This document shows, one piece after another, positions 1 to 60,421 of a DNA stretch of 64,000 bases. The notes under the pieces are model-generated. The model saw only the letters and a program-made list of their open reading frames with translations. It made no database searches and was not told where the DNA came from. Positions within the stretch are counted from its first letter, which is position 1, and each line of letters opens with the position of its first letter. The stretch lies in the NCBI GenBank assembly GCA_030710605.1, contig CP092886.1, forward strand, positions 166,314,573 through 166,378,572. The letters are read 5' to 3'. This stretch comes from Cordylochernes scorpioides (Eukaryota; Arthropoda; Arachnida; Pseudoscorpiones; Chernetidae). The translations under genes and the position numbers were made by a program.

Positions 1-18
1 TCAATGGTTCAGCCTACT

Positions 19-59
19 CCACGCTGACGAGCGCCAAAAAGCGCGAAACGCGTTCGTGG
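19..59 (+). ncRNA. Type I hammerhead ribozyme, copy 1
   Basis: Helix I is CCACG (19-23) with CGTGG (55-59). The core CTGACGA (24-30) is followed by helix II GCGC/GCGC (31-34, 41-44) with loop CAAAAA, then GAAA (45-48). Helix III is only A48-T53 and C49-G52, so it cannot form a stable hairpin alone, but ACGCGT is self-complementary and could pair between two copies. Cleavage is predicted after T54 in the GTT triplet. All invariant core positions are present. Confidence 0.83.
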
Positions 60-369
60 ATGGCTTTTCTTGATTTATCAAGAAATTGGGTTGGCCAAAT
101 ATCAGGGAACAGGTTAAATCAATGTTTAGTTGATTTCTGTTCCACCAGATGGCGCTCTGCCTTCTGTAAAGCACATGTGCTCCTGGTCAGGATATGCTAT
201 TTTTTATATTGATTTCAACACCTGATCTTTTTATCTTTTATTTTTTTATTTCGTTTTTTAATGTGCTAAGCGTATTTACGCAAGTTTGGCCTTAAATACC
301 CATTTCTTGGTTTTTCAGGAGGCCATTGGGATCAAAAAATATTTTTTGGTCTCAATGGTTCAGCCTACT

Positions 370-410
370 CCACGCTGACGAGCGCCAAAAAGCGCGAAAC
401 GCGTTCGTGG
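370..410 (+). ncRNA. Type I hammerhead ribozyme, copy 2
   Basis: This has the same sequence as copy 1, shifted by 351 bp: helix I 370-374 with 406-410, CTGACGA 375-381, helix II GCGC/GCGC, GAAA 396-399, predicted cleavage after T405. Two cis copies would release a unit-length RNA. Confidence 0.83.
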
Positions 411-639
411 ATGGCTTTTCTTGATTTATCAAGAAATTGGGTTGGCCAAATATCAGGGAACAGGTTAAATCAATGTTTAGTTGATTTCTGTTCCACCAGA
501 TGGCGCTCTGCCTTCTGTAAAGCACATGTGCTCCTGGTCAGGATATGCTATTTTTTATATTGATTTCAACACCTGATCTTTTTTTATCTTTTATTTTTTT
601 TATTTCGTTTTTTAATATATATATATATATATATTAAAA

Positions 640-905
640 ATAAAATGCGCCCTACCTGAGAGTCCACATGAGCATTTTCGTTAGCAGAGCACCATCCACA
701 GTGGAGAAAAATATAAACTAAACGTTTATTAAACCTTCTCCGTAATATTTGGCCAACCGAATTTCTTGAAAAATCAAGAAAATTCATCCGCGTACGCGTT
801 TCGGGCTGTTGGCTCTCGTCAGCGTGGTGAAGGCTGTACTTCAACGACCAAAAAGTTGTTCCATGGAGTTTATTGAGAAATCGAGAAATAGTATTTAAAG
901 CCAAA
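640..905 (-). repeat. Diverged retrozyme-like copy, inverted
   Basis: Read on the minus strand, this holds the same order as the tandem units: a hammerhead core, then ATCAAGAAATT..GGTTGGCCAAATAT, then a diverged body and a CTCATGTG-like end. It faces the tandem pair across a (TA)n tract at about 615-636. It differs at many positions, so it is an older copy or a different subfamily. Confidence 0.6.
788..827 (-). ncRNA. Hammerhead ribozyme, diverged copy
   Basis: On the minus strand: CCACG, CTGACGA (complement of 816-822), a helix II region with weakened pairing around loop CAACA, GAAA (complement of 799-802), then CGCGTA. Helix I has one A-C mismatch and helix II has lost pairs, so activity is doubtful. 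The cleavage triplet would be GTA. Confidence 0.6.
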
Positions 906-956
906 TTTGTGTAATTACGCTAAACATGTGAGAAAATAAGAAAAATATTTTTAAAA

Positions 957-7301: not shown

Positions 7302-8635
7302 TATATGGCACTAGGGTGTGATGGTTTAGCCTCTCTTCTATACGTATATGGAACTAGGGTTATATGGTTGAACCTCTCTACTATATATGGCACTAGGGTG
7401 TGATGGTTTAGCCTCTCTTCTATACGTATATGGAACTAGGGTTATATGGTTGAACCTCTCTACTATATATGGCACTAGGGTGTGATGGTTTAGCCTCTCT
7501 TCTATACGTATATGGAACTAGGGTTATATGGTTGAGCCTCTCTACTATATATGACACTAGGGTGTGATGGTTTAGCCTCTCTTCTATACGTATATGGAAC
7601 TAGGGTTATATTGTTGAGCCTCTCTACTATATATGGCACTAGGGTGTGATGGTTTAGCCTCTCTTCTATACGTATATGGAACTAGGGTTATATTGTTGAG
7701 CCTCTCTACTATATATGGCACTAGGGTGTGATGGTTTAGCCTCTCTTCTATACGTATATGGAACTAGAGTTATATGGTTGAGCCTCTTTACTATATATGG
7801 CACTAGGGTGTGATGGTTTAGCCTCTCTTCTATACGTATATGGAACTAGAGTTATATGGTTGAGCCTCTCTACTATATATGGCACTAGGGTGTGATGGTT
7901 TAGCCTCCCTTCTATACGTATATGGAACTAGGGTTATATGGTTGAGCCTCTTTACTATATATGGCACTAGAGTGTGATGGTTTAGCCTCTCTTCTATACG
8001 TATATGGAACTAGGGTTATATGGTTGAGCCTCTCTACTATATATGGCACTAGGGTGTAATGGTTTAGCCTCTCTTCTATACGTATATGGAACTAGGGTTA
8101 TATGGTTGAGCCTCTCTACTATATATGACACTAGGGTGTGATGTTTTAGCCTCTCTTCTATACGTATATGGAAATAGGGTTATATGGTTGAGCCTCTCTA
8201 CTATATATGGCACTAGGATGTGATGTTTTAGCCTCTCTTCTATACGTATATGGAACTAAGGTTATATGGTTGAGCCTCTCTACTATATATGGCACTAGAG
8301 TGTGATGGTTTAGCCTCTCTTCTATACGTATTTGGAACTAGGGTTATATGGTTGAGCCTCTCTACTATATATGGCACTAGGGTGTGATGGTTTAGCCTCT
8401 CTTCTATACGTATATGGAACTAGGGTTATATGGTTGAGCCTCCCTACTATATATGGCACTAGGGTGTGATGGTTTAGCCTCTCTTCTATACGTATATGGA
8501 AATAGGGTAATATGGTTGAGCCTCTCTACTATATATGGCACTAGGGTGTGATGGTTAAGCCTCTCTTCTATACGTATATGGAACTAGGGTTATATGGTTG
8601 AGCCTCTCTACTATATATGGCACTAGAGTGTGATG
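7302..8635 (+). repeat. 82-bp satellite, 16 units, each a 43+39-bp dimer
   Basis: TATGGCACTAGGGTGTGATGG starts at 7304 and then every 82 bp up to 8616, exactly 16 periods with no net indel. Each unit joins two related halves: TATGGCACTAGGG..TCTATACGTA (43 bp) and TATGGAACTAGGG..CTACTATA (39 bp). Point changes are spread over the units. The period is not a multiple of three, so apparent ORFs inside are not genes. This is higher-order tandem DNA. Confidence 0.95.
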
Positions 8636-16484: not shown

Positions 16485-16690
16485 ATTCAGGATATGCCTA
16501 TTTTGCTTTATATCAACACCTTTTATTTTTTCACGCTGATGAAGACCAAAAGCCCGAAACGTGTTCGTGTGGTTGGCTTTTCTTGATTAATATAATAATG
16601 TGAATAATGGACTTGTTCAACGTTTTTTTAAAATTTCTTTTTATAAATATGACGCTCTGTCATCTGAAAGGTTCATGTGAGCAGTAAGGT
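16485..16690 (+). repeat. Retrozyme-like copy with short unit
   Basis: The tail motif (CAGGATATGCC..ATCAACACC..TTTT) runs directly into a hammerhead core and then into the body (GGCTTTTCTTGATT .. GACGCTCTGTCATCTGAAAG..CATGTG). Compared with the 351-nt units it lacks the roughly 100 bp between tail and ribozyme, so it is a shorter subfamily. The tail-ribozyme-body order is what a tandem or circular RNA source would give. Confidence 0.6.
16532..16569 (+). ncRNA. Hammerhead ribozyme, short-unit copy
   Basis: CACG (16532-16535) pairs with CGTG (16566-16569). CTGATGA is at 16536-16542 and GAAA at 16556-16559. Helix III is the self-complementary CGTG context, and cleavage is predicted after T16565. 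Helix II (AGAC/GCCC around CAAAA) has lost pairs, which would weaken activity. Confidence 0.65.
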
Positions 16691-18061: not shown

Positions 18062-18312
18062 ATATTGAAAATGGCATATCCTGACCAAGAGCACATTGCT
18101 ATACAGAAGGCAGAGCGCCATCTGGTGGAACAGAAATCAACTAAACATTGATTTAGCCTGTTCCCTGATATTTGGCCAACCCAATTTCTTGATAAATCAA
18201 GAAAAGCCATCCAAGCTAAATAAATGTTTAGTTGATTTCTGTTCCACCAGATGGCGCTCTGCCTTCTGTAAAGCACATGTGCTCCTGGTCAGGATATGCC
18301 ATTTTTAATATT
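18062..18312. repeat. Retrozyme-like palindrome (two inverted bodies)
   Basis: Two bodies face each other. The left, inverted, runs GGCATATCCTGACC to AAAAGCCATCC (about 18071-18212). The right, direct, runs TTTAGTTGATTTCTG to GGTCAGGATATGCC (about 18226-18299) plus a tail to 18335. They meet next to where the ribozyme cleavage site would be. Each would lack a complete hammerhead. Confidence 0.65.
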
Positions 18313-18359
18313 GATTTCAACACCTGATCTTTTTTTTTTTCGTTTTTTCATATAGATAT

Positions 18360-18499: not shown

Positions 18500-18715
18500 A
18501 TAATGAAGACATTTTCTGACCAAAATCACATGTGCCTTTTAGATGGCAGAGCGCCATCTAGTGGAGCAAAAATAATTTAAACGTTTATTTAACTTGCTCC
18601 GTGATATTTGGCCAACCCAATATCTTGATAAATCAAGAAAAGCCATCCACCTACGCGTTTCGCGCTGTTGGCGTTCGTCAGCGTGGAGCAGGCTATACCA
18701 TTTTTTTGCATTTGT
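18500..18715 (-). repeat. Retrozyme-like copy, inverted, with ribozyme
   Basis: The plus strand shows a diverged tail, the AGATGGCAGAGCGCCATCTAG palindrome, AAACGTTTATTTAA, TGGCCAACCC, TCAAGAAAAGCCATCCAC and then the complement of a hammerhead core. It directly precedes the Tc1-like transposon at 18727. Confidence 0.7.
18647..18686 (-). ncRNA. Hammerhead ribozyme
   Basis: Minus strand: CCACG, CTGACGA (complement of 18675-18681), helix II ACGC/GCGC with one lost pair and loop CAACA, GAAA (complement of 18658-18661), CGCGTA, then GGTGG, which pairs with CCACG except at one position. Predicted cleavage follows the GTA triplet. Confidence 0.7.
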
Positions 18716-18726
18716 TTTCACACATA

Positions 18727-20145
18727 CACTGCGTGACATTGAAAATGGAACACCAAGAAATAGTGGCCAGAAAATTATGCAAATTTCAGGGTAGACGCGC
18801 CTAACCGAGTTATGCAAATGATGTAAAATGCGCAGCTTTCGTGCGCACATGGAGTAAGATATAAGGGAAGGAACTTGCAGAAAGGACAGTATTCGTGTCG
18901 TTATTTCTTCAAGGAAAATCATTGTAGAAATTTTGTTCTTGTGTCAAAAGACACGTGTAATAACAGAGAATGCCAGGTCATCGTAAACGGAGGCAGTTCA
19001 AGCAGACAGACGCTTTCACGAGGGGCGTGGTGATCGGACTGAAAAGGGCAGGTTGGTCCATACGTCAAATCGCAGCTGATACACACCTTGGTGCGTCCAC
19101 GGTGCACCGACTGTGGAGAAGATGGTTGGAACAAGGAAATGTGGCAATTTATAGGAATGTCGGTGCAACCAGAGTGACGTCAGCACGTGTGGATCGGCGT
19201 ATCCTTCGACAAGCAGTGGCGGCCCCACAAGCCACTTGTACCGCCATCCTGCAACATGTGCAAGACACCCTAGATCATTCCATCTCGACCAGAACCATTT
19301 CCCGTCGATTGGTTGCTAATGGCTTGCACTCATGCCGTCCGCTAAGAAGACTGCCATTGACCCCACCGAATAGGCGCCAACGTTTGGAATGGTGTCGGGC
19401 TAGATCGACGTGGATGACGGAATGGCACAGGGTCGTGTTCTCAGATGAGTCGCGTTTCTGCTTGTCCAGTGATAGTCGCCGTGTACGCGTGTGGCGTCGA
19501 CGTGGAGAAAGGTCCAATCCGGCAGCAATTGTGGAACGCCCCACCGTGCGACAATGTGGAATCATGGTTTGGGGCGCAATCGCGTATGATTCCAGGTCAG
19601 CTTTACTTCGTATTCAGGGCACTATGACGGCCCAACGATACGTTGATGATGTGCTGCGACCGGTGACACTCCCCTACCTTCAGGGGGTACCCAATGCCCT
19701 TTATCAGCAGGATAACGCCCGACCGCACACTGCTCGCATTAGCCAACAAGCTCTGCAAGATGTACATATGCTTCCCTGGCCACCGTACTCTCCTGATCTC
19801 TCACCAATCGAGCACGTCTGGGACATCATTGGACGCCGTTTGCATGCCTTGCCACAGCCGCGTTCAGAAGACGAACTGTGGCAAATGGTTGAGAGGGAAT
19901 GGAGAGCCATCCCTCAGGACGCCATCCGTACTCTGATTGACTCTCTACCTAGACGTGTTGCTGCGTGCATCGCCGTCCGCGGTGGTCTTACTTGCTACTA
20001 AGCCGACGCCGTTCTCGCTCTCTATTATGACTATCATTTTGAAATAAAGATCATTTATTGTTCGTCCCTGTCTCTCTCTGTCTGTCGAGTTTAATCAATT
20101 TCTGGCCACTATTTCTTGGTGTTCCATTTTCAATGTCACGCAGTG
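18727..20145 (+). mobile_element. Tc1-like DNA transposon, apparently complete
   Basis: The terminal inverted repeats are 47 bp and perfectly matched (CACTGCGTGACATTGAAAAT..GGCCAGAAA at both ends). TA flanks both sides (18725-18726, 20146-20147). The single ORF is intact, and an AATAAA signal follows the stop at 20043. All parts for autonomous transposition appear present, so it is the youngest DNA transposon in the window. Confidence 0.95.
18970..20001 (+). CDS. Tc1-like transposase, intact, 343 aa
   Basis: This enzyme cuts and joins DNA at the terminal repeats and inserts into TA. The N-terminus has two helix-turn-helix parts (GLKRAGWSIRQIAADTHLGAS at about 24-44 and a second at about 75-115) linked by basic residues. 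The catalytic residues are D159 in FSDESRF, D248 in QQDNARPHTA and E281 in SPIEHVWD. The second and third are separated by 32 residues rather than the classical 34. I believe relatives in the same arthropod clade share this spacing, but that is from memory. The IMVWGAIAYDSR block before the second aspartate is typical. Length fits the family (about 340 aa). Codon use is GC-richer than the surroundings, a sign of recent arrival. The ATG at 18970 gives the usual MPxxRKRR start. Activity is inferred from integrity only. Confidence 0.95.
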   Translation: MPGHRKRRQFKQTDAFTRGVVIGLKRAGWSIRQIAADTHLGASTVHRLWRRWLEQGNVAIYRNVGATRVTSARVDRRILRQAVAAPQATCTAILQHVQDTLDHSISTRTISRRLVANGLHSCRPLRRLPLTPPNRRQRLEWCRARSTWMTEWHRVVFSDESRFCLSSDSRRVRVWRRRGERSNPAAIVERPTVRQCGIMVWGAIAYDSRSALLRIQGTMTAQRYVDDVLRPVTLPYLQGVPNALYQQDNARPHTARISQQALQDVHMLPWPPYSPDLSPIEHVWDIIGRRLHALPQPRSEDELWQMVEREWRAIPQDAIRTLIDSLPRRVAACIAVRGGLTCY

Positions 20146-20525: not shown

Positions 20526-20887
20526 TGTTACATCAATTTTAATGCGCCTTACATTTATTCAGAATATTCTATGATATTTAATATTTATTTAAAACAGAAT
20601 ATTTAGATTATCATCATTCCTTTTTATAGTTTCACTCCTTTTGTAATATTTATTGTACATATATCTTTATTGCTTATTGGAGCGGGAGAGGACCTAGACG
20701 AAGACTGCGGATCGCAACCTACGAGGAAGAAAAGAATAAATAAACAGGTAATTTATTTTATTTAATTTTATTTATTTACTTTTATTTATTTGTTTTGAAT
20801 ATGGAAACCCGCTCGGGAAACGTGTATAACACCAAGAAGGAAGAAACCAAGGTCGACGACCCTGCAAAGCTGCAACTTGGTGCAACA
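20526..20887 (+). repeat. Gypsy 1 5' LTR, 362 bp
   Basis: It begins TGTTACATCA and ends GGTGCAACA, so the termini TGTT/AACA are inverted. It ends just before the TGG of a likely primer binding site. Unusually, the gag start codon at 20801 lies inside the LTR. Confidence 0.88.
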
Positions 20888-21936
20888 ATTGGTAGAGATG
20901 CTGGTTTCGAACCAGTTACTTTAAACCCCAATATAGAAATTCCGAAATATGACGGGACAGAAGACCCTCGCCCATGGATAGAATCCCTCGAAGGGATTGG
21001 TCTCCTCTATCATTGGGCAGACTACTTAATTGCCCGTTATGCCGCCATGAACATGACGGGAAGCGCTAAAACCTGGTTAAATTTACACAAAGCTAGTTTC
21101 ACGAGCTGGGAAAATATTAAAATCCGCCTCATTCAGGATTTTTCTCTGGACGCGAATAAAGAAAAACTTAGAATGAAGCTCAACAGAATGCAACACTGGA
21201 ATGAACCAGCAATCAGGTTCGCGGAAGACATTCTAGTGTTGTGCAACAAGGTTGACCCCGTAATGGAAGAATAAACAGAAATTGAACATGTTATTGGAGG
21301 ACTGAAAAAAAGAGTACTCATTCGCACTCTACCTGAACCCTCCAAGAACTTCTTGTCGTGTGCAAGAAAATGGATTCTTTTGAAAAGAAGTATCGGGAAC
21401 GTGTGGAGAAATCCAGAAACCTATATAACAGTCCACGCTATTCTAGACCCCAACAACAATCGAGGTACGTGCCGCCGACTGCCGCACGAAACTACCAGAC
21501 CACTTCCAGGCCCCAAGCCCCTGTTTCCAATAATTACAAGAACGACTTCCCTCCTACTCCCAGACAGTATCAAAACAACTTTCCCCAGCCCTCTACCCCT
21601 AGACGTCCCTATAGTCCTAACTTTGTGCCGAAACCAAACCTTCAGAGAAACACCTACGATAAAAGCCAAGAAGTGAGCAAAAATAGGACGGAAGATGGAA
21701 GACCAATCTGCTTTAAGTGTAAAAAGCCAGGGCACGTGGCCCGTTATTGTAGGGTCAAGTTTATAAGAATCCTAGAAGAGGATCCAACAGATACCCAAGG
21801 GAAGGTCGAAGAGAAATTCCAAATGAATGAAATATCAGAGAAATCAGGACCTCGGCTTTATGCTGACGTATGTCATAGCACACAGACAAATATTCCTACC
21901 CGGAATAGATATTCCGTGTTGGAAGATTTAAACTAA
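20801..21936 (+). pseudogene. Gypsy 1 gag, disrupted
   Basis: Gag forms the particle and binds RNA. The ATG at 20801 (METRSGNV) lies in the LTR. The capsid-like part has typical gypsy sequence such as YDGTEDPRPWIES and GSAKTWLN. A TAA at 21272-21274 interrupts it after DPVMEE, but the same frame continues with EHVIGGLKKRVLIRTLPEP. Near 21360-21380 the frame shifts into a proline/asparagine-rich linker and a zinc knuckle C-X2-C-X4-H-X4-C (21709-21750, CFKCKKPGHVARYC). The ORF ends at 21936. Capsid and nucleocapsid are therefore present but separated by one stop and one frameshift. The first 29 codons come from the LTR. Confidence 0.85.
20890..20915 (+). promoter_or_regulatory. Primer binding site (tRNA-like, extended)
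   Basis: TGG at 20890 is followed by TAGAGATGCTGGTTTCGAACC. The complement would be a tRNA 3' end ...CTCTACCA preceded by a T-arm with TTCGAAA loop. Complementarity through the T-arm would be longer than the common 12-18 nt. I cannot name the tRNA. The site overlaps gag codons. Confidence 0.55.
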
Positions 21937-21992
21937 GCGTCGCGCCTGAATCTGTCAATCAAAGCAAGTCGACCATAAACGGAATCAAGAAG

Positions 21993-24900
21993 TTGGACGC
22001 TAAATACAAATTAAAAATTAATGTGAACAAGATAGGGACTTTTGAAGCTTTTGTTGATACAGGTGCTGAGCTCTCAGTGGTCGACCTCAGAACGGCCCTC
22101 GATACAGGCCATGGTATAAGTAAACTCGCAAAAATTTGTGCAGGACCCGATGGAAAAAAAATTGGAGACATGGTAGGAAGTATATTTTTAAATATAAAAA
22201 TTTATGACGAAACATTATCACACAACTTTGTGATATTGAAAACGCATTTACGGACATTAATTCTTGGAAGAGATTTCCTTAAGAAAATGAAGGCGATAAT
22301 AGATTGTAAGCAAGAAACTATAAAATACGATTTGACGAATAATCATGACGAAAGCAATTTTGAAATGTTGAAAATAAAGAGTGCCAAGGATTCCATTGTA
22401 CCGGAATGTTCCATTAAATTGATCAAGGCATTGGTAGAAACAGAGGATGGGGAATATATTATCGAGGAGAGCAGCAAAATGTTTCAAACAAATGGACTTC
22501 GTCTAGCAAGAAGCTTGATCAATGTTATAAATAGGGAACAACATATCTGGATAACTAATCCGTATCCTGGACCGTTAAAAATAATGAAAACCCAAACATT
22601 GGCTTTTGGAAGTAGTCCAGCGAAAATAAATGCGAATCGAGAAAGAGAGGTAGAAGAGAACGAAGAACTTAGATTCCAAATAAACGAAAATCTTTCACCA
22701 AAGGAACAGAAGGAGTTAAAACAAGTTTTAGAAAGGCATGGAGATCTGTTTTCGTCGAGATTAGGGAAAACCAATTTGGCAAAACATCGGATAGACACAG
22801 AAGACGCGAAGCCAATTAAACACAAGCCTTACAGGGTAAGTGCTAAAGAACGAGATATTATAAAATAGCAAATTGACGAGATGCTTACAGAAGGCATAAT
22901 TAGGCCATCTTCTTGTCCCTGGTATTTTCCAGTAATATTGGTCAAGAAGCGAGATGGTAAATACATATTTTGTGTGGACTACAGAAAACTGAATAATGTG
23001 ACAGTAAAAGATGTCTATCCGATCCCTAGAACAGACAAATTTATGGATACTCTCCAAGGATCTACATACTTTTCAGCAATAGACCTCAGATCTGGATATT
23101 GGCAAGTTGAAGTCGAAGAAAGAGACAAAGAGAAAACAGCTTTCACTACAGCGCATGGATTATATGAATTCAACTTGATGCCTTTTGGACTTTGTAACGC
23201 GCCTGCTACCTTTGAGAGAAATATGGAAAATATGCTTGGAAATCTGAGATGGCAAATTTGTTTGTGTTATCTGGATGATTTTATCATATATAGCCCGGGT
23301 TTTCCAACGCACCTTAAAAGACTTGAAGCTGTTTTTAGATGTTTTCGTGACTCTAATTTAAGGTTAAACGACAAAAAGTGCCGATTTGCTTTTGAAGATT
23401 TGGAGATTCTCGGCTATATAACGAGAAAACATGGTATAAAACCCGCGGAACATAACATAAAAGCTGTCAGAAATTTTCCTCGGCCCACAAAGGTCAAAGA
23501 AGTACAATCTTTTTTGGGAATGTGTTCATATTTTATATAAAATTTATCAAAGATTTCTCAAATATTGCTGACCCTTTGACCAACCTTATAAAAAAGTGTA
23601 TCATTTACCTGGACAGAAAGACAAGAGGAAGCGTTTCAAATCCTAAAACAGCACTATTAAGTCCACCAATTTTAGGTCACTTCAATCCAAATGCGCCTAC
23701 TCATGTTCATACTGATGCGTCCAACATCGGCATAGGTGCAACACTTGTCCAAGACATCGGTGGTGTAGAGAAGGTGATCACATATTTGAGTCGTATCCTA
23801 AATAAAGCGGAGCAAAATTATTCAACAACTGAATAAGAATGTCTGGCCGTTGTCTGGTCAATGTCAAAATTACGGCCCTACCTTTATGGAAGACCTTTTG
23901 AAATAGTAACAGACCATCACGCCTTATGCTGGCTCAAAAACTTGAAGGATCCAACAGGCCGATTGGCAAGATGGGCATTAAAAATTCAAGAATATGACTT
24001 CGATATAATACATAAATCAGGAAAGAAGCATCTGGACGCCGATGGCTTATCTAGGGGACCCTTACCAGAAACTGAGTGGGATGAGGATTTTGAAAGGTTA
24101 TTTTTAAATCAAATAACAGACGAAGGGGATAAGTTTATCGAAAGTGTTAAGAAAAACCTTAATGGAAGCAGGCGATCAATTGCGCAAAACTTCAAAGAAA
24201 AAGATGGATGCCTCTTTAAGAAAAACCCGAACCCTCAAGGCAGGGCGTGGTTGCTCGTGGTTCCAGAGAAGAAAAAGAGAGAAATTATGAAAGAATATCA
24301 CAATCATATGTCGAATGGCCATCTGGGCGTCGCCAGAACCATGTACCGAATGAAGAGTAACTACCTTTGGCCATCCATGCTAAAGGATGTCTCAGAATTC
24401 GTTAAGACGTGTCACCTTTGCCAAAGTAGGAAAGGCTCAAACCAATTACCTTCTGAACTACTACAGCCCATTCCCCCAGCCAACTTTCCTTTCGAAAGAA
24501 TTGGAATTGACTTTGTTGGTCCATTGCCATCTACGAAAAACAGGAAAAAATGGATAATCGTGCTGACGGACTACTACACTAGATATGCAGAAACAAAAGC
24601 AGTCTCGGAAGCAACAGTGAAAGAAGTTTCAAAATTTCTAGTAGAGGATATTTTTCTCCGGCACTGAGCCCCACAATATCTAATTAGTGACAGGGGCTCT
24701 CAATTTACCAGTAATTTAATGAAAGAGGTCATGAAAATGTGCACGATTAAACATTGCTTCACAACGAGCTATCATCCCCAGACTAATGGATTGACAGCGG
24801 TTAAATAGAACATTGATCAATATGCTCAGTATGTATGTGAACACTGATCAGAAGAATTGGGACGAAATACTCCCGTTCATCACTCACGCTTACAATACTA

Positions 24901-25400
24901 CAATTCAGGAAACCACAGGATATTCTCCCTTTTTCCTGATGTTTGGAAGAGAACCCACGTCTCTTTTGGACGACAGGAATATCTCGGTGGACATTGACAA
25001 GGATGATTATGATGAATACATAAAACATCACTTAGACAAAATAGACAGAACAAGAAAATTAGTTATTAACAACACAATAAAGACTCAAGATAGAATGAAA
25101 AAGAACTATGACAAGAAACACATGGAAAGAAGCTACGAACCAGGAGAATTAGTAGCAGTTTGGACACCAATTAGGAAAATAGGAAAGTGCGAGAAACTTC
25201 TGAGAAAATATTTTGGTCCATATAGAATATTAAAAAAGATGTCTAGCGTCAATTATCTAATAGAACCGAAAGATAATCCGGGCCAAGACCCTCTGATAGT
25301 TCATGTTTCAAGAATCAAGCCTTATTATGAGAGAATGGATGAGGTCATTCACGAGGACGTGAAAACCTTTGGAGAGGGGGAAGTGTTACATCAATTTTAA
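21993..25400 (+). pseudogene. Gypsy 1 pol (PR-RT-RNaseH-IN), disrupted
   Basis: Aspartic protease: FVDTGAEL (D at codon 22 of this ORF) and ILGRDFL. A TAG at 22866-22868 stands between DIIK and QIDEM at the RT start. RT: VDYRKLN, FSAIDLRSGYWQV and YLDD (23268-23279). A frameshift occurs near 23530. RNase H: THVHTDASNIGIG, a TAA at 23834-23836, then TDHHALCWL and the KKHLDADGLSR end. Integrase: CHLC zinc part with upstream histidines, IGIDFVGP and SDRGSQF with the first two acidic residues. A TGA at 24665-24667 precedes SDRG. The segment with the third acidic residue after HPQTNGLT is corrupted, with a TAG. Another frameshift leads into THAYNTT and the GPY module (YFGPYRI), and the ORF ends EVLHQF inside the 3' LTR. 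At least four stops and two frameshifts make it inactive. Confidence 0.9.
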
Positions 25401-51779: not shown

Positions 51780-52130
51780 ACAACATAGATTTGGCCACTT
51801 TTCCAGATAAACACCTCTTTAGCAGATTGTGAAGATCCCATTTGATACCTTGGGGATTTCATGGAGTAAAGCCCGCCCTCTACTGATGAGGGCCATTAGC
51901 CCGAAATCATGGTCTCCAGGAGGTCTATTTTCAGTTTGCCGAAGCTAAGGTTGTGGCTTTGTCACTCACCTGAGTCTTCTAGTTTACAGCGACGGTCAAT
52001 AGGTAGAGTCTAGTATTGACGTTTATTTTGACGAGAGAAGGAACCTTTATTTTTATAGATTAAATCTCCTATAGCATCTATATGTGGTGAGGAATTATGG
52101 TACTGAGTATTCTTTTCTTCCTTTTCATAT
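51780..52130 (+). repeat. Dispersed repeat with hammerhead-like motif (possibly Penelope-like)
   Basis: 51790-51950 holds a hammerhead-like core and CCAGGAGGTC. 51960-52125 repeats the AGCGACGGTCAATAGGTA family. Whether both parts belong to one element is inference. Confidence 0.45.
51876..51924 (+). ncRNA. Hammerhead-like ribozyme motif, second family
   Basis: CTGATGA (51883-51889), helix II GGGC/GCCC (51890-51893 with 51899-51902) with loop CATTA, GAAA (51903-51906), then a short helix III AU/GU context and the GTC cleavage triplet ending at C51914. Helix I is weak: CCTC upstream and GAGG downstream (51919-51922) can pair across an internal loop. Core and helix II are perfect, helix I is the weak point. 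Confidence 0.6.
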
Positions 52131-59964: not shown

Positions 59965-60421
59965 GAAAGGTCAATATACTGCTTTTCAACGGGTATCTCG
60001 AAAGCTTGCAAATTCAAAATTAAAAGAAACCCGTTGAAGAGCAGTATATTTGCTCGAAAGCTTTCAAATTCAAAATTAAAAGAAACCCGTTGAAGGGCAG
60101 TATATTTGCTCGAAAGCTTTCAAATTCAAAATTAAAAGAAACCCGTTGAAGGGCAGTATATTTGCTCGAAAGCTTGCAAATTCAAAATTAAAAGAAGCCC
60201 GTTGAAGAGCAGTATATTTGCTCGAAAGCTTGCAAATTCAAAATTAAAAGAAACCCGTGGAAGAGCAGTATATTTGCTCGAAAGCTTGCAAATTCTAAAT
60301 TAAAAGTACCCGTTGAGGAGCAGTATATTTGCTCGAAAACTTGCAAATTCTAATTTAAAAGAAACCCGTTGAAGAGCAGTATATTTTCTCGAAAGCTTGC
60401 AAATTCAAAATTAAGAGAAAC
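59965..60421 (+). repeat. 56-bp tandem repeat, about 7 units
   Basis: The unit reads CCCGTTGAAGAGCAGTATAT, TTGCTCGAAAGCTTGCAAAT, TCAAAATTAAAAGAAA. The CCCG anchor recurs at 60033, 60089, 60145, 60201, 60257, 60312 and 60368, one unit being 55 bp. The array begins with an inverted half unit (ATACTGCTTTTCAACGGG at 59975-59993), so the left border is a hairpin. Confidence 0.9.

Follow-up and report, generated by a model that had tools for sequence, protein, structure and literature searches.

Animal retrozymes have been described as tandem repeats of 150–450 bp. The part of that report considered here (Cervera & de la Pena 2020, PMC7229834) names Penelope-like elements (PLEs) as strong candidates for moving them and proposes circular templates, neither of which is demonstrated in it. 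For hammerheads within PLEs, the portion of PMC8490949 used here cites papers of 2014 and 2017, and the W-element paper (one of PMC4918200 and PMC8490949) mentions, in its consulted part, circular DNA as a possible route for hammerhead repeats. According to the sections of PMC11167929 used here, the PLE protein of an anole cuts and extends both strands in vitro, beginning at two adjacent internal start sites on the RNA. These sites bound the genomic tail and are equal between strands, and ribozyme cleavage is dispensable in this assay. Inverted ends are found in Penelope copies of Adineta vaga, and one of the two may carry a tail (excerpts of PMC3846280). Among the listed titles and first lines of abstracts from open-licence papers, none linked Cordylochernes or pseudoscorpions with retrozymes.

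Here we analyse a repeat at the left end of a 64,000-nt stretch of Cordylochernes scorpioides DNA, which we call the window. The window occupies positions 166314573–166378572 of contig C24 in an assembly of 2.62 Gb and 24 contigs (C1–C24). From the genomic anatomy of this repeat and its relatives, we consider it probable that we are dealing with a non-autonomous animal retrozyme, the circular RNA of which would be copied from both target nicks by Penelope-like machinery before the two cDNAs are end-joined.

The window locus and its hammerhead unit

The window begins with direct copies (1–250 and 352–601) that are 98% identical, spaced by 351 nt and free of differences over their first 226 nt. 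We number the unit from window position 1. Each copy contains a type I hammerhead, and the two cores are letter-identical, which bears out the original prediction of two 351-nt-spaced copies with the same ribozyme. Stem I consists of CCACG/CGTGG with an outer AGCC/GGCT; the core then runs through CTGACGA, stem II (GCGC-CAAAAA-GCGC) and GAA, and helix III is ACGCGT. The predicted cuts follow a GUU triplet, at positions that agree with the canonical fold (Table 1). Cleavage may be slow, given the weak helix III and the GUU triplet. In a scan of 1.2 kb, each copy matched the Rfam HH9 model with E 9e-8, at a score below the curated cut-off of 52 bits. No Rfam match in the 64-kb window reached the gathering score, and RF00008 had no match over the genome, a negative that carries no information because the model also matched none of 14 control genomes.

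The unit is 351 bp long, has a GC content of 0.387 and occurs in tandem and in many copies. Its predicted circular fold is highly paired (minimum energy −113, a value without a shuffled baseline). Among the listed frames of at least 100 aa, one reaches into positions 1–1001 (584–919, minus strand, mostly over an older copy), and it has no Pfam match. Retrozyme-like anatomy, a non-coding 351-nt unit, a short self-complementary helix III and a link to Penelope-like elements, all of which had been predicted, fit the data. The first unit is full, and the second is a partial one that ends in (AT)n. An assembly artefact behind the 351-bp offset is unlikely, because the unit has at least 269 matches in the genome and one of its 32-mers occurs in 2,458 exact copies. 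The palindrome across the unit boundary contains position 341, at which units of the same locus disagree in several loci (L033, L040, L055 and L067).

Table 1. Features of the retrozyme locus and of related copies in the window (window coordinates).
Feature	Position	Strand	Remarks
Full retrozyme unit, right (plus) arm	1–351	+	unit numbering starts here; arm begins outside the window
Hammerhead ribozyme 1, type I	11–65	+	core 19–59; predicted cut after T54; Rfam HH9, 38 bits (same score for each copy)
Helix III (ACGCGU) of ribozyme 1	48–53	+	too short for stability alone
S site, TTTTTTATAT; 209-type outer end	200–209	+	internal here
L site, TTTTTTAAT; 262-type outer end	254–262	+	internal in the first unit; true end at 616
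Near-perfect palindrome across the unit boundary	322–359	+	unit 322–351 and 1–8
Terminal plus-arm piece, unit 1–262	352–616	+	stops at the L site
Hammerhead ribozyme 2	362–416	+	predicted cut after T405
(AT)n, right flank of the insertion	617–634		left end, outside the window, also flanked by (AT)n
Older degenerate family copy	640–1001 (approximate limits)	−	about 68–84% by stretch; hammerhead-like core at 822
Older truncated two-armed family copy	18062–18351	minus then plus	94–95%
Older family copy	18510–18702	−	85%; hammerhead-like core at 18681

To complete the element we read 10 kb to the left of the window (L001). The insertion spans about −1825 to 616 and thus starts some 1.8 kb outside the window. 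In this left-hand portion, six inverted units, four of them full and two partial, precede the initial 56 nt of the plus arm. From left to right, an (AT)n flank is followed by the minus arm, which consists of unit 209–1, four full units and a piece that runs from 351 down to about 193. It meets the plus arm with a 3-nt overlap (ATA). The plus arm starts at about −55 (unit position ~296), continues with one full unit and terminates with the 1–262 piece. No differences separate the full units of the two arms; small changes occur in the terminal and junction pieces. Because the units on the left are inverted, the locus is not a direct array that continues leftwards. The head-to-head turn had been overlooked, as had the third, degenerate and inverted copy next to the insertion and the fixation of the ends at two sites.

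The window contains several other repeats. Positions 16532–16591 carry a hammerhead-like core (CTGATGA...GCCCGAAA) in a fragment that is 82% related to the unit and has no Rfam match up to E 1. A minimal hammerhead-like core, CTGATGAGGGCCATTAGCCCGAAA, lies at 51859–51912 (site 51883); its stem I is poor and its match to Rfam Hammerhead_3 is weak (E 0.78). Similar cores occur at positions 48 and 4423 of locus L040, and together these cores suggest another ribozyme family. Tandem arrays are found at 7302–8635 (period 82 bp, 16.3 copies, 96% matches) and 59997–60421 (period 56 bp, 7.6 copies, 94% matches). A retrotransposon in pieces (20744–25400), with RVT_1 in one frame, is Gypsy-like by our reading and is flanked by ~370-bp repeats at 20526 and 25384 that are 93.7% alike. 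Positions 18964–20001 form an open frame for a Tc1-like transposase of 345 aa; among the best 120 of its 4,092 protein matches, which bear Cordylochernes names, identity over the aligned part is 81–99%. The matching C. scorpioides proteins from the contig of the window often bear X locus tags; this contig is most likely the X chromosome.

Two-armed insertions and their fixed ends

We examined 30 loci, namely the window locus and 29 fetched loci chosen among the best matches listed (38 clusters were counted by eye in that listing, and eight were left out). Short hits starting at unit position 323 (first set) or at 320 and beyond (later set) were excluded from the anatomy. The typical insertion consists of two arrays of ~351-nt units that diverge from a variable junction, with the minus array to the left and the plus array to the right. 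This architecture, in which the two outer ends fall at or close to unit positions 209 and 262, one of each and on either side, was found in 26 of the 30 loci. The count includes L035, where an arm contains as many as 16 full units and the short end stops at 195. In L044, L058 and L060 a single arm is present and the other side joins AT-rich flank. The remaining locus, L038, has two 262 ends and is a composite of pieces of two ages. Both end types also occur in older copies (86–90%), found in L038 and to the left of the window insertion. Within the unit, the S site is internal to a full repeat and serves as the outer end in one arm of a typical insertion.

Since these 30 loci were drawn from the best matches, exact end patterns provide a freer test. 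Ends in (TA)n were found genome-wide at 313 L and 172 S places. Pairing was assessed over the stretch common to both listings of 100 places each (C1 to C5:12.6M; 100 L and 42 S ends). Over this stretch 20 pairs of neighbouring ends lie less than 12 kb apart; 19 are L/S pairs in head-to-head orientation, the other is an L/L pair of the same polarity, and none is a head-to-head L/L or S/S pair. Most of the ends listed have no partner in the exact-match listings. An internal 30-mer gave the same picture: its first 100 of 1,583 places, all on C1, form 31 clusters, and all 11 clusters with two arms are head-to-head. One large array on C1 (48800232–48808014) contains 4 minus and 19 plus internal sites, spaced by 352 nt except for one spacing of 345 and one of 351 nt.

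Most insertions sit in (TA)n. Target-site duplications (TSDs) were sought in 25 loci, that is, the 30 without L035, L038 and the three one-armed loci. In a control that admitted AT-only words, 92 of 274 mismatched words were at least 11 nt long, and words holding G or C were used instead. Such words, of 11–17 nt, flank 8 of the 25 insertions, as compared to 4 of 600 mismatched pairs of flanks. These lengths are upper bounds because some letters are common to the unit ends. Most of the other loci have (TA)n or AT-only flanks, in which a TSD would go unrecognised.

A foldback-type DNA transposon, the arms of which would grow by unequal exchange or by DNA rolling circles, would have the same overall look, with long inverted arms made of tandem repeats and with TSDs. 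The details speak against such an element, and we consider it very unlikely. Instead of matching inverted termini, the insertions have different ends (209 and 262), each of which is a 3′ end of the sense strand. The junctions are variable, one-armed copies exist, variants specific to a locus fill both of its arms (see below), and a unit of 351 nt is too small for a transposase.

The junctions bear on a second explanation. We mapped 19 of them, leaving out L038, L044 and nine loci that were fetched later. The arms overlap by 1–7 nt at 11 of the 19 (by 3 nt or less at nine of these) and abut without overlap at one. Apparent inserts of 1–21 nt occur at the other seven; the one in L037 is due to a single mismatch, and those in L041, L045 and L048 look templated. 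These values suggest that the arms were joined by microhomology, with overlaps mostly of 1–3 nt such as chance alone could give. With respect to the unit, the arms meet at unrelated positions: the two sides lie within 20 nt of each other at 2 of 19 junctions, close to the chance expectation (0.12 × 19). Self-priming, in which one cDNA folds back and copies itself into the second arm, was proposed for the head-to-head Penelope copies of Adineta vaga (in the part of PMC3846280 considered here) and predicts junctions at which the two arms have reached one and the same position of the unit. Junctions at such mirror positions, tested over the 19, were not seen in the majority. Because the arms meet as by chance, and given two different fixed outer ends that snap-back copying does not predict, we regard this route as extremely unlikely, the least probable of those considered here.

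Variants common to both arms

If both arms were copied from one template, a variant of that template should fill both. We counted substitutions in 220 unit pieces from 33 loci, setting aside pieces below 95% or shorter than 61 nt, indels, the outer 8 nt of every piece, positions 313–351 and positions covered in one arm only. Among 71 cases covered in both arms, 12 are present in every covering unit of both, 8 are partial and 51 are confined to a single unit. The concordant cases come from the window locus (2), L046 (1), L051 (1), L056 (2), L057 (2), L059 (1), L061 (1) and L066 (2); some of them involve a single unit per arm or in one arm. Several recur elsewhere among the 33 loci, in one or more of them: 252A from L046, 198T from L056, 114T and 205A from L066, and both cases (114T and 198T) from the window locus. 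Of the partial cases, six belong to the composite L038 and two to L052, where the variants occupy 2 and 3 of 16 plus-arm units. The idea that 114T is private to the window locus was dropped, as its 32-mer is the one with 2,458 copies and marks a large subfamily.

The strongest case for a shared template is 252A in L046, which is nearly unique in 2.6 Gb. The 30-mer with this variant has eight copies in the genome, six of which are in L046, three per arm; the usual C form has 1,583. The other two copies are found one each at two loci, in single units with different backgrounds. C4 and C21 were rejected as sources of the L046 variant on account of these other backgrounds. A change in length behaves in the same way: each arm at C1:50887911 has five unit spacings, all ten of them measure 343 nt, and an identical 8-nt deletion is present in all four pieces read. 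The disagreement among units at position 341 in four loci and the mixed unit lengths at C1:131124132 speak against a single template.

Because variants and a length change fill both arms, the simplest reading is that one unit-length template was copied repeatedly into both, in other words that the template was a circle. It is from these shared variants that we infer an RNA circle. The same twin-primed reverse transcription might instead have used a linear multimeric transcript of an existing array. Such arrays exist and are nearly homogeneous (a comparison of arms that set aside pieces below 93% or shorter than 61 nt), and the part of PMC11167929 used here describes the transcription of PLE loci into RNA that contains several copies. 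The mixture of units in L052 and the mixed unit lengths at C1:131124132 would fit this origin as well, and a homogeneous array that is absent from the assembly would mimic a circle. Nevertheless, we consider a multimeric template unlikely. It would have to account for 252A, which fills L046 and appears elsewhere just twice, and for the deletion carried by every piece read at C1:50887911. Moreover, a multimeric source needs such arrays beforehand, so that the problem is merely moved back.

Penelope-like elements and comparison with known systems

The circular-template reading requires an enzyme that can act on both target strands, and the same genome contains candidates. We scored 150 of 17,015 candidate sequences and found at least 146 GIY-YIG matches; all 11 pairs among them that lie less than 8 kb apart are head-to-head. 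One PLE, L062 (C1:8982700–8997500), contains two copies of one ORF with a GIY-YIG domain at residues 34–114 (Pfam) and a YVDD motif downstream. The Pfam reverse transcriptase model does not reach E 0.001 on this ORF. The YVDD motif probably marks a reverse transcriptase, because several of 15 relatives of the protein carry RVT_1, some of them with GIY-YIG or PF26215. The arms of L062 are head-to-head, about 99% alike and longer than one 5,263-nt period each. Each of the two ends borders on (TA)n, with an offset of about 113 nt between them, and the arms overlap by 15 nt at their junction. PLEs are the best candidates for the enzyme because the same signature is found in this genome.

The (TA)n at the right end of L062 harbours a retrozyme copy. 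By pattern search, L062 contains no complete hammerhead, just an incomplete hammerhead-like string, and its only similarity to the 351-nt unit is a T-rich stretch. The sequence therefore gives no support to L062 as the retrozyme's direct partner, and we take this element as an illustration of the mechanism. A second Penelope-like stretch (L048, 1–1436) encodes protein 61–69% identical to that of L062 and adjoins a retrozyme array. PLEs of the Naiad/Chlamys type have an N-terminal GIY-YIG domain. L062 resembles them in that GIY-YIG precedes YVDD, and differs in having no complete hammerhead by pattern search.

Twin priming by a LINE-type enzyme also yields inverted copies with TSDs (part of PMC2837659). 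Reverse transcriptase domains are present in the window, and the 15-bp TSDs of Nematostella retrozymes are called LINE-like in the portion of PMC4918200 considered here. The two fixed internal starts and the tail at one end, by contrast, match properties of PLEs and of L062, as do the AT or (TA)n target and the two arms at 26 of the 30 loci. A LINE-type enzyme is hence a decidedly unlikely source of these insertions.

In the reading that we favour, Penelope-like copying of an RNA circle would proceed as follows. A transcript through tandem units would be cut by its hammerheads into 351-nt RNAs, which would be closed into circles. An endonuclease would introduce two staggered nicks, very roughly 10–15 bp apart, in (TA)n or AT-rich DNA; the target duplications support this stagger. 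The two target 3′ ends would then prime reverse transcription at two fixed sites within the RNA, one end at unit position 262 and the other at 209, as the recurrent 209/262 anatomy indicates. Both polymerases would circle one RNA for one to many laps, which would explain two arrays of near-identical units with opposite polarity. Finally, the two cDNA fronts would meet at a variable place and be sealed by an end-joining pathway.

The anole enzyme, with start sites that are equal between strands, does not explain why an S end is paired with an L end. We are evenly divided on whether one dimeric Penelope-like enzyme acts on one RNA circle, with its subunits at 209 and 262 and each using one nick of the target. 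If so, a palindromic array of hammerhead satellites would be born complete in a single insertion. Circular RNA would then be the normal template of retrozymes and perhaps also of tandem PLEs, since the arms of L062 both exceed one lap. The genome preserves traces of both proposals made for animal retrozymes, movement by PLEs and a circular template: most young copies examined have PLE-type ends, and variants of the template recur in both arms with successive laps. If our reading is true, it would explain the one-step origin and the spread of hammerhead arrays, and sites 209 and 262 provide exact targets for biochemical studies of PLE integration.

How does this element compare with described systems? 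With the animal non-LTR retrozymes, as far as the consulted part of PMC7229834 describes them, it shares a type I hammerhead, a tandem non-coding unit of 351 bp, a GC content below 50%, TSDs longer than 4 bp and a weak helix III, as in salamanders. It differs from them in its head-to-head pair of arrays and its two fixed outer ends. The hammerhead repeats of newt, schistosome and cave cricket (excerpts of PMC4918200 and PMC8490949) are similar in size and form arrays; here, in contrast, we find dispersed palindromic insertions with TSDs. Against the anole Poseidon and the Adineta Penelope, judged from the sections of PMC11167929 and PMC3846280 used above, the likeness lies in head-to-head ends, two internal starts of reverse transcription, an AT-rich target and TSDs; Poseidon also shares the hammerhead. 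Unlike these PLEs, the unit has no protein and is a template of 351 nt that runs through many laps in both arms. Its tail measures 53 nt, whereas the PLE tail is optional, 30–40 nt long and restricted to one end. Whether S ends pair with L ends was tested here over many loci, unlike in the consulted reports on Poseidon and Adineta Penelope. The unit has no ORF with reverse transcriptase and GIY-YIG, as an autonomous PLE would, and PLE-type ORFs lie elsewhere in the genome; two internal starts, a tail at one end, head-to-head inversion and an AT-rich target are all present, as in a PLE-type insertion. On the features tested, the element therefore belongs to the animal retrozyme kind: it works like a PLE insertion and is not a PLE. 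The proposal of an undescribed lineage is borne out only in part: by anatomy the element is an animal retrozyme. What appears to be new, judged against the open-licence literature considered, is its integration anatomy, which points to a single small template copied over many laps by twin-primed synthesis.
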